Positions 9,352 to 58,042 of a DNA stretch of 64,000 nt are shown here, one piece after another. Origin of the DNA: Gammaproteobacteria bacterium. Its GTDB lineage: Bacteria > Pseudomonadota > Gammaproteobacteria > Pseudomonadales > Azotimanducaceae. The notes under the pieces are model-generated. The model made no database searches. It saw only the letters and a list, made by a program, of their open reading frames with translations, and was not told the origin of the DNA. The stretch spans positions 21,790-85,789 of the forward strand of contig JAPPGA010000068.1 of assembly GCA_028821515.1 (NCBI GenBank). Reading direction: 5' to 3'. A program made the translations under genes and the position numbers. How positions within the stretch are numbered: the stretch's first letter is position 1; every line of letters begins with the position of its first letter.

Positions 9352-9469
9352 CTAGGGGCCTGGGCTGTAGAACGGCACGCCAGTGCCGTTCTAAGCGCGG
9401 GGCAGTAGGTGGGCTTGGGCGGGGGTGAAACACGGCGCACCCGAAGGGCGACGGGTTTCATGGCGCTAA
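9352..9469 (+). repeat. Dispersed GTAG-hairpin (REP-like) repeat, copy A
   Basis: CTAGGGGCCTGGGCTGTAGAACGGCACgccaGTGCCGTTCTAAGCGCGGGGCAGTAGGTGGGCTTGGGCGGGGGTGAAAC...TTTCATGGCGCTAA; matches copies at 26692, 11324 (minus) and 57952 (minus). Confidence 0.88.
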
Positions 9470-11325: not shown

Positions 11326-11460
11326 AGCGCCATGAAACCCGTGGCCCTGACGGGCGCCGTGCTTCACCCCGCCCAAGCCCTCTGTCTCACCCTTCCCACC
11401 CGTCCCGGGTCCTGCGCCTTGATCGGCACTTCGTGCCGTTCTAACGGCGCAAGCCCCTAG
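11324..11460 (-). repeat. Dispersed GTAG-hairpin (REP-like) repeat, copy C
   Basis: Minus strand CTAGGGGCTTGCGCCGTTAGAACGGCACgaaGTGCCGATCAAGGCGCAGGACCC...GGGCTTGGGCGGGGTGAAGCACGGCG...GGGTTTCATGGCGCTAG; CTAG at both ends; internal extra segment. Confidence 0.82.
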
Positions 11461-12551
11461 TCGGGGGGTCTCGCCGTTGCGCTTAACTCGACGTAACGTT
11501 TCGCCTTGGCCCACTCCTCGTTGAGGAGGCTTAGCCGTACCAGCGTCTGGAGCAATACCGGGTCGCGCGGTGTGTGTTCCAGCCATTTTTCCGCGGTGGC
11601 AAGCTGTTCGCCGGGGTGTCCCGACCAGATTTCGCCGTACAGTTGGATCAGCCGATCATCCGGATTCCTTTCGATGGCTCGCCTGAGTATGCGTACTGCC
11701 ACGTCCGCCTCTCCGACCGCGTCCAGGCACTGGGCATAACGCACGGCTACGGCACCGGTCCGTTTCAGTCGTCGCGGGATCTCACGCCACGTTTCCCGCA
11801 CATTCTGCGCTGCATCGGCGCTTGTGGAACTCGCTTCGAGCCGCCCGCACCAGGCACGCTGAAGCGACTGTTCGAGGTCCGACGGATCCACCGCCTTGGC
11901 CTTGCCGATCACCGGTGCAAGTTCCACAACCGCATCCCAGTCTCCAAGTTCCTCGTGGCATGCCAACAGCATGGACAGCACCCTGGGATGACGGGGCGAC
12001 GCTTCGTTGAGTCCTTCCAGCGTTTCAAGACATTCCTGCATCTGGCCGTGTTCGGCAAGGAATCGCGCGCGGGTCAGTCCGGCCGCGAGTGACGCGCCGG
12101 ACGCCGCACCGCCAGCGAGGTCGAGGAGCCGGTCCCGTTCGTCGGCATCCTTGAGTTCGTGCGCCGCGCGTGCCGCCCCGAGATAGTTGACGATAGGCGT
12201 CGGCGCGCTCGACGCAACCTCCGTCAACGCTTTCCGGGCATCTGCCCAACGACCTTCGAGAATGTGCAGGACGCCCTGTTCAGTGCGTTGATTCGCGGTC
12301 GTCTCGCGACGCTTCTGCCTCCAGTTTGCGAAGTCCGCGCCACCGCGCAAAAGGCGCCGCGCGAGCGCGAAAAGCAGGCGCGCCAGAACCCAGAGCAGCA
12401 CCAGGGCAATGAGCGCGAACCAGACGCTCGTCTCGAACGCGGCCTTGTCGTACGCGATCAGCACATAGCCCGCGTCCTTCAACATCAGGGAACCGAGCAG
12501 GCCCCCGATGATCACGGCAGCGACCGCGTAGACGAGGGTGCGGACTTTCAT
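11457..12551 (-). CDS. hemY: Heme biosynthesis protein HemY
   Basis: MKVRTLVYAVAAVIIGGLLGSLMLKDAGYVLIAYDKAAFETSVWFALIALV; TPR-like C-terminus; position downstream of hemCDX. Confidence 0.85.
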   Translation of the reverse strand: MKVRTLVYAVAAVIIGGLLGSLMLKDAGYVLIAYDKAAFETSVWFALIALVLLWVLARLLFALARRLLRGGADFANWRQKRRETTANQRTEQGVLHILEGRWADARKALTEVASSAPTPIVNYLGAARAAHELKDADERDRLLDLAGGAASGASLAAGLTRARFLAEHGQMQECLETLEGLNEASPRHPRVLSMLLACHEELGDWDAVVELAPVIGKAKAVDPSDLEQSLQRAWCGRLEASSTSADAAQNVRETWREIPRRLKRTGAVAVRYAQCLDAVGEADVAVRILRRAIERNPDDRLIQLYGEIWSGHPGEQLATAEKWLEHTPRDPVLLQTLVRLSLLNEEWAKAKRYVELSATARPPD

Positions 12552-26527: not shown

Positions 26528-26695
26528 GTGAACCAAGAAGAGGAGCGAGCGGCCAAGGAGTTGAGGAACCTTGATGCTGCCTCCGTTAAACTGGAAGCAG
26601 AAGCGAATAAATTCGCCGCCGAAGCGAAGAAGCTGGACGCGGAAGGGCGCAAGATCGAGCGGACTGCGTACACGGACGCAGTCAAGTTAGGCTAG
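26528..26695 (+). CDS. Small Ala/Glu/Lys-rich coiled-coil protein (55 aa), possibly truncated
   Basis: AGGAAGG ribosome-binding site then GTG; MNQEEERAAKELRNLDAASVKLEAEANKFAAEAKKLDAEGRKIERTAYTDAVKLG*; the TAG stop is the first bases of repeat copy B. Confidence 0.5.
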   Translation: MNQEEERAAKELRNLDAASVKLEAEANKFAAEAKKLDAEGRKIERTAYTDAVKLG

Positions 26696-26808
26696 GGGCC
26701 CGCGCCGTAGAACGGCACGCGAGTGCCGATCAAGGCGCGGGACCGTAGGTGGGCTTGGGCGGGGGTGAAACACGGCGTGCCCGAAGGGCCGGCGGATTTC
26801 ATGGCTCG
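26692..26808 (+). repeat. Dispersed GTAG-hairpin (REP-like) repeat, copy B
   Basis: CTAGGGGCCCGCGCCGTAGAACGGCACgcgaGTGCCGATCAAGGCGCGGGACCGTAGGTGGGCTTGGGCGGGGGTGAAACACGGCGTGCCCGAAGGGCCGGCGGATTTCATGGC. Confidence 0.88.
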
Positions 26809-30687: not shown

Positions 30688-31230
30688 ATGTCCAAGTATC
30701 GACGCGTCGTCACGGGGCATGACGACGAGGGCAAGTCCATCATCGCCATGGACGGCGGGCCCGGCATCCGGCGCGGCAACTTGTACGAGATGTGGTGCAC
30801 ACAGAGCATGCCCACCCACAATCGCGAACTGGTGGATGCCGTCGAGACGCGCCCCGGTTTTCTCGAACCCGATCCCGACGGCACGATATTCCGTTTTTTC
30901 GAAGTGCGGCCGGAACGCGAGCATGGGAGCCGCGAGGATCGCGAACGCGAAAACCAGAAACGCCTCGCGGCCATGAGCGAAGAAGAGAGGGCCGCAGCGA
31001 TCGAGCGGAGACCGGACACCTCCCGCCACCCGGGGATGCACAAGACCAAGACGGTGGACTACATCATCCTGCTCAGAGGCGAGGTGACGATGCTGGTCGA
31101 CAAGGGCGAAGTGGACCTGAAGCCGTTCGACGTCGTCATCCAGCGCGGCACCAACCACGCATGGGTGAACAAGGGCGACGAGACGGCAGTCCTGGTAGCG
31201 ATGATGGTGGTGGCCGAACCGCTACCCTGA
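30688..31230 (+). CDS. Cupin-domain protein
   Basis: HKTKTVDYIILLRGEVTMLVDKGEVDLKPFDVVIQRGTNHAWVNKGDETAVLVAMMV. Confidence 0.85.
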   Translation: MSKYRRVVTGHDDEGKSIIAMDGGPGIRRGNLYEMWCTQSMPTHNRELVDAVETRPGFLEPDPDGTIFRFFEVRPEREHGSREDRERENQKRLAAMSEEERAAAIERRPDTSRHPGMHKTKTVDYIILLRGEVTMLVDKGEVDLKPFDVVIQRGTNHAWVNKGDETAVLVAMMVVAEPLP

Positions 31231-57951: not shown

Positions 57952-58042
57952 CTAGCGCCATGTTTCACCCCCGCCCAGGCCCACCTAATGTCCTGCGCTT
58001 TGACCGGCACTAACCGTGCCGTTCTACAGCGCAGGCCCCTAG
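57952..58042 (-). repeat. Dispersed GTAG-hairpin (REP-like) repeat, copy D
   Basis: Minus strand CTAGGGGCCTGCGCTGTAGAACGGCACggttaGTGCCGGTCAAAGCGCAGGACATTAGGTGGGCCTGGGCGGGGGTGAAACATGGCGCTAG; CTAG at both ends; about 28 nt shorter than copies A and B. Confidence 0.85.

Follow-up and report, generated by a model that had tools for sequence, protein, structure and literature searches.

The repeat found in four copies in the window (the whole stretch of 64,000 nucleotides that was analysed) is a small hairpin-forming DNA of approximately 115-140 bp, which is dispersed approximately 80 times in this gammaproteobacterial genome and is mobile, as empty sites in close relatives prove. It is probably a non-autonomous hairpin MITE of approximately 114-138 bp that enters a CT dinucleotide, likely in a single-stranded form and through a Y1 HUH transposase acting in trans. 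The movement of REP-like repeats is generally attributed to domesticated transposases and, to our knowledge, filled and empty sites that show the insertion of such a repeat are rarely available. The close relatives used in the present study provide many filled and empty pairs, in which the CT rule, new stop codons, and one shortened ORF are directly readable.

Four copies had been located in the initial annotation, and a covariance model search of the own genome returned exactly these four in the window, at the same positions and on the same strands; they lie at 31141, 48481, 33113, and 79741 of the own contig C73. The earlier description of the GGTGGGCTTGGGCGGGGGTGAAAC block and of the hairpin with its outer stem also held, and the full element extends beyond the part first described, spanning CTAG to CATGGCGCTA(G). 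The order from 5' to 3' is CTAG-GGGCC, the first side of the outer stem, GTAG-AA-CGGCAC-loop-GTGCCG, the second side of the outer stem, TAGGTGGGCTTGGGCGGGGG, a second hairpin (GTGAAA..TTTCAT), and GGCGCTA(G). The features in the window are as follows (a caret marks the insertion point; G003 and G005 are genomes of the same genus).

9354..9467, + strand: copy A, short form, the element proper under the model of insertion after CT, AGGGGCC...CATGGCGCT; filled also in G003 and empty in G005
9352..9353, + strand: left CT dinucleotide of copy A, which forms CTAG with the next AG; placed by the rule from empty sites
9367..9370, + strand: GTAG before the inner hairpin of copy A
9373..9388, + strand: inner hairpin CGGCAC-gcca-GTGCCG (helix 2) of copy A
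9408..9425, + strand: near-invariant unpaired G-rich linker GGTGGGCTTGGGCGGGGG of copy A; GGGCTTG within it is the attachment core for integrative islands in G005
9425..9461, + strand: second hairpin GTGAAA...TTTCAT (helix 3) of copy A
26694..26806, + strand: copy B, short form; the upstream ORF ends in frame at its left CTAG
11326..11458, - strand: copy C, long form, at the TAG stop codon of a hemY-like gene (11457-12551, - strand); empty in G003 (GACT^AGCGGCGCGG)
57954..58040, - strand: copy D, internally deleted, with the second hairpin gone; an ORF with the C-terminus KPHCDGTHTFV (CDGSH-like) stops at its left CTAG

The short form measures approximately 118 bp when its terminal CTA(G)s are counted, and the long form of copy C measures approximately 139 bp with an additional CGGGACGGGTGGGAAGGGTGAGACAG block (CGGGACGGGTGGGATGGGCGAAACAG-like). 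The element proper, at 114-138 bp, carries two hairpins in subterminal positions, one near each end, and only its inner part has the size of a REP. No terminal inverted repeats are visible, the ends AGGGGCC.. and ..CATGGCGCT not being inverted repeats of each other. In the main form, the exact GTAG precedes the inner palindrome in 47 of approximately 80 copies, and AG is kept in most of the others. GTAG is absent from the LE2 sub-family, which has a different first hairpin (CTGTCGGACTTGCCGC..GCGGCAAGATCGACAGG; L034, L049, L230, L231, L238, L241, L242, and L243) with the ends and the linker unchanged; to judge from these sequences, the swapped first hairpin is a module exchange.

The claim in the initial annotation that stem changes are compensatory was borne out in an alignment of 31 copies from the own genome. 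Both sides were changed in 15 of the 28 pairs, doubly changed cells numbered 68 versus 17.5 in shuffles, and none of the 500 shuffles was as high on any measure. Pairing stood at 95.3% and collapsed to 32-43% when the partner was slid by 1-3 columns, a control that is somewhat favourable because the alignment was built by sequence and the structure was derived from the alignment. Covariation was seen in helices 1-3, further compensations were apparent by eye in other copies (GTAAAA/TTTTAT and GTACAAC/GTTGTAT), and the fold of copy B was 4.1 (RNA) and 4.5 (DNA) standard deviations below shuffles. The hairpins are under selection and are not due to chance. In the same alignment, many of the invariant columns were within the unpaired linker and TTTCATGGC, and the second hairpin and the G-rich linker were conserved at least as well as the REP-like part. 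One strand of the linker (positions 9408-9425 in the window and the equivalent stretch of other copies) is rich in G, and a canonical four-run quadruplex motif was present in 45 of the 111 copies.

A genome-wide search for further copies had been set beforehand as a test of the repeat family, and covariance model R1 found 81 at E<=0.001 in the 4.04 Mb of the own genome, which is an assembly of 86 contigs, many of them ending in repeats. When 99 related genomes were searched with the model, matches were confined to the own genus, and the repeat is genus-restricted. It is abundant in G003 and G005, the latter a closed chromosome with 66 core matches, while G001, G004, G006, and G007 hold few, weak relatives of it; it was absent, under strict filters that may lose weak matches, from the congeners G002 and G008 and from 90 other genomes of the family and order. 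Plasmid and phage collections contained no match to the element. The hemY-like protein of the window matched the MAG 'Gammaproteobacteria bacterium isolate COS4_bin_29' at 96% and 'uncultured Pseudomonadales bacterium' OX638346.1 at 73%. A run of N and low-quality-looking sequence stand beside a partial copy at L250 and suggest assembly trouble there.

Copy C is absent from G003, a 95%-identical relative in which at least eight other copies are likewise absent. Its site reads ..CCCCGACT^AGCGGCGCGGAATCG.. in G003 and ..CCCCGACT[AGGGG....GGCGCT]AGTGGCGCGGAATCG.. in the own genome. Using joined own flanks as the query, continuous matches in G003 and G005 were collected and then read base by base, which gave empty sites for C, B, L058, L063, L064, L066, L067, L068, and L070 in G003 and for A, L051, L054, and L056 in G005. 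The junction dinucleotide was read at the position that the right flank in the own genome fixes, and it was CT in nine of the 12 readable cases (C, B, L051, L054, L056, L058, L063, L066, and L067), GT in L064 and L070, and CA in A (G005); L068 was unreadable. CT stands on both sides of the inserted AGGGG...GGCGCT, and no target duplication longer than CT was found at the readable empty sites. The CT at empty sites thus defines the element as AGGGG...GGCGCT inserted after CT. To the left of CT, one C is missing in L067 and L058 and changes are present in L070 and B, which indicates that some left junctions are imprecise or that the relatives have changed. L054 in G003 reads GGCGCT-CAGGGG-CGCTAT, which resembles what a lost copy would leave behind (a short remnant) more than a site never entered.

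Copies also stand in head-to-tail arrays with a period of approximately 114, in which one CTAG is common to each junction, and the number of units has changed between relatives.

G005:2542536-2543109: array of five units of period 114
G005, near 2733403 and 1806949: further arrays
G000:C21:82026-82256 (own genome): pair that is a single unit in G003

The element probably moves as CT^AGGGG...GGCGCT^flank, and its two hairpins, one near each end, would be recognised in trans by a Y1 HUH transposase of the RAYT or IS200/IS605 kind. This enzyme would cut each end just after CT, for which the AG in the tetranucleotide before the inner hairpin may act as a guide. From the CT ends, the lack of terminal inverted repeats, the subterminal hairpins, the head-to-tail arrays, and the xxAG motif, we infer this enzyme class and, with it, the single-stranded route and the guide role of AG. 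Non-autonomous derivatives of IS200/IS605 elements (Y1, single-strand) similarly have a hairpin near each end and no terminal inverted repeats, and insert 3' of a short fixed sequence that remains at the left end and reappears at the right; the absence of a longer target duplication also fits this type. They differ in that the target here is only CT rather than 4-5 nt, no autonomous partner was found, and no lagging-strand bias was seen. IS608 and ISDra2 are known for a lagging-strand preference, whereas the copies in the closed G005 chromosome were distributed as 24 leading and 27 lagging, with replichores roughly estimated from skew. None of the partial copies read belonged to an autonomous partner in which these ends enclose tnpA: considered as candidate ends of an autonomous element, two of these copies were islands inserted in the repeat, and the others were ordinary partial copies beside host genes. 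The failure to find a transposase gene flanked by the element, the presence of RAYT genes in G002 and G008, which are free of the element, and the lack of GTAG in LE2 also count against a Y1 mechanism, as does the C lost to the left of CT in L067 and L058, which a clean cut leaves unexplained.

The nearest known system is that of REP/BIME elements with their RAYT (TnpAREP; PMC8266576, PMC2817692, and PMC3733652), with which the element shares high copy numbers, intergenic positions, GTAG before a palindrome, CT ends, TAG stops for neighbouring ORFs, and compensatory changes. TnpAREP is reported to cut REPs at CT on both their 5' and 3' sides, and in the proposed model A3 and G4 of GTAG are the guide that selects CT (PMC8266576). 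Regarding the reading of the repeat as REP/RAYT-type in the initial annotation, what stands is a dispersed mobile hairpin with GTAG or xxAG before the inner palindrome, CT ends (insertion at CT being apparent in nine of the 12 readable empty sites), and TAG stops. A RAYT associated with the element and inverted pairs did not emerge, the exact GTAG was confined to part of the copies, and instead of the REP/iREP pairs of a BIME, only head-to-tail arrays were seen. There is no RAYT gene in the window, as noted initially, and none was flanked by the element elsewhere: the three RAYT-like genes of the own genome and the matches in the eight congeners were without a copy, in a search that covered RAYT-like matches in nine genomes, mostly drafts, with loci of approximately 1.5 kb on each side and a few weak matches without a locus. 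The own RAYT-like genes (L037, L038, and L039 on C85, C2, and C13 of G000) encode approximately 305 aa, fall below the NCBIfam cut-off, and lie between repeats of another type (GTGTCC/GGACAC), a REP-like system distinct from the present one.

We regard as unlikely the alternative that the element is a genuine REP/BIME family served by a RAYT of the genus, with a REPtron that either falls in an assembly gap or disappeared once the copies had spread, leaving orphan REPs. The arrangement of GTAG, a two-base spacer, and a perfect inner palindrome is that described for REP_Mb of Marinomonas (PMC8266576), the CT ends and TAG stops also agree with such a family, RAYTs are present in the genus, and the fragmented own assembly has many contigs ending in repeats; however, no RAYT with the repeat was found in nine genomes, including the closed and repeat-rich G005, and the element is far larger than the 20-50 nt palindrome of REPs, with two different hairpins, a conserved G-rich linker, and a sub-family without GTAG. 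We consider that the element works like a REP/Y1 element and do not claim its membership among REPs. It may also, as a proposal of similarly low probability, represent a new class, namely, a CT-targeting single-strand element with two hairpins and a G-rich, possibly quadruplex-forming linker, which would use a transposase other than the known RAYTs, place ready-made stop codons at gene ends, and serve as a dispersed landing pad for integrative islands and an IS.

Less probable still is a MITE derived from a DDE transposon whose target duplication is very short (TA, CTA, or CTAG), as is seen in IS630 or IS5 groups. In favour of such a duplication, most copies are bordered by CTAG to the left and CTA to the right, and the site of copy C contains a single CTAG in its empty state and two once it is occupied, but the right flanks vary after CT (CTC, CTTA, CTTG, and CTGG) and, like the empty sites with CT only, do not fit a duplication of TA or CTA. 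The terminal inverted repeats and the TA or YTAR duplication of IS630/IS5-type MITEs were not found, and the hairpins are subterminal. Correia-type elements, which are bacterial MITEs, also measure approximately 100-170 bp, occur in many intergenic copies, and are sometimes read into neighbouring genes; they differ from the present element, in which terminal inverted repeats and a clear TA duplication are lacking. The same likenesses and differences apply to enterobacterial RU elements (PMC2759123).

Returning to the CT-inserting hairpin element, its left end reads CTAG and, thus, is often the stop codon of the neighbour. Among clearly coding flanks, called by a codon-usage score trained on window genes, TAG or TAA of the element was the in-frame stop in 20 of 39 on the left, and, on the right, its CTA terminated a convergent gene in 31 of 44. 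Using a simple hand-set gene caller, 33 of the 52 copies with both ends recognised were flush with at least one gene end. GTAG REPs also provide TAG stops to flanking ORFs (PMC3733652). With CTAG at the left end and (G)CTA at the right, a copy can provide either neighbouring gene with a stop codon, and copies may survive best at gene ends. The ORF upstream of copy B continues in G003 to ..KLALAAFATILAALQVANALGWL and a stop, which indicates that the insertion of copy B made a new stop and removed a C-terminal tail; in G005, this tail is not in frame. Of the 60 genes called in the window, 29 end in TAG, the most frequent stop codon, and only three in TAA.

A functional RNA or terminator kept by selection at gene ends is very improbable. 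The conserved folded structure, the positions at 3' gene ends, and a linker that could form a G-quadruplex are in its favour, but copies occur in both orientations relative to genes, are polymorphic for presence at orthologous genes, and in the case of copy B truncate an ORF; Rfam 15 had no match at the gathering score at the copies and none even at E<=1 around copy B. Moreover, 14 of the 25 non-coding CTAG sites in the window are at stop codons, in a census to which the copies themselves add. The position at gene ends is thus largely explained by the CTAG site itself and selection against insertion inside genes, which weakens it as a sign of RNA function.

The element is also a multi-copy attachment site for islands and IS, and in this manner tiny repeats shape the landing of large mobile DNA. 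In G005, the islands L251 (383.7-392.9 kb, approximately 9.2 kb) and L253 (approximately 3,686-3,700 kb) each split a copy at the linker GGGCTTG, with the junctions ..TAGGTGGGCTTG^TCCGATA.. and ..GACGCGGA^GGGCTTGGGCGGGG..; L253, of approximately 14 kb, ends at 3,700.1 kb and apparently consists of two islands in tandem. The islands carry paired P4-type integrases; two proteins contain Arm-DNA-bind_3, Phage_int_M, and Phage_integrase domains, and two others resemble tyrosine recombinases. Since one of the split copies has the LE1 first hairpin and the other has that of LE2, the linker rather than the first hairpin is probably what the islands require. Movement of the element itself by a tyrosine recombinase, such as that of these islands, is the least probable reading, because the P4-type integrases that adjoin the two G005 copies recombine in the middle of the element and not at its ends, and only two such places were found.

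An IS-like sequence (GATATGTTTTGACCTGTCAAG..) stands exactly after CATGGCGCT at ten own contig ends (L040-L049), at which the assembly breaks. It interrupts at least 10 own copies, and the contigs stop 27-46 nt inside it. Its end sequence was absent from the eight congeners, and an IS110-type transposase was rejected as the source of a repeat-targeting IS, there being no PF01548 match in the own assembly. In one own contig, ..GGCAGGTCAAAACATTATGT is located directly before the CTAG of a copy, and looks like the other end of the IS-like sequence.
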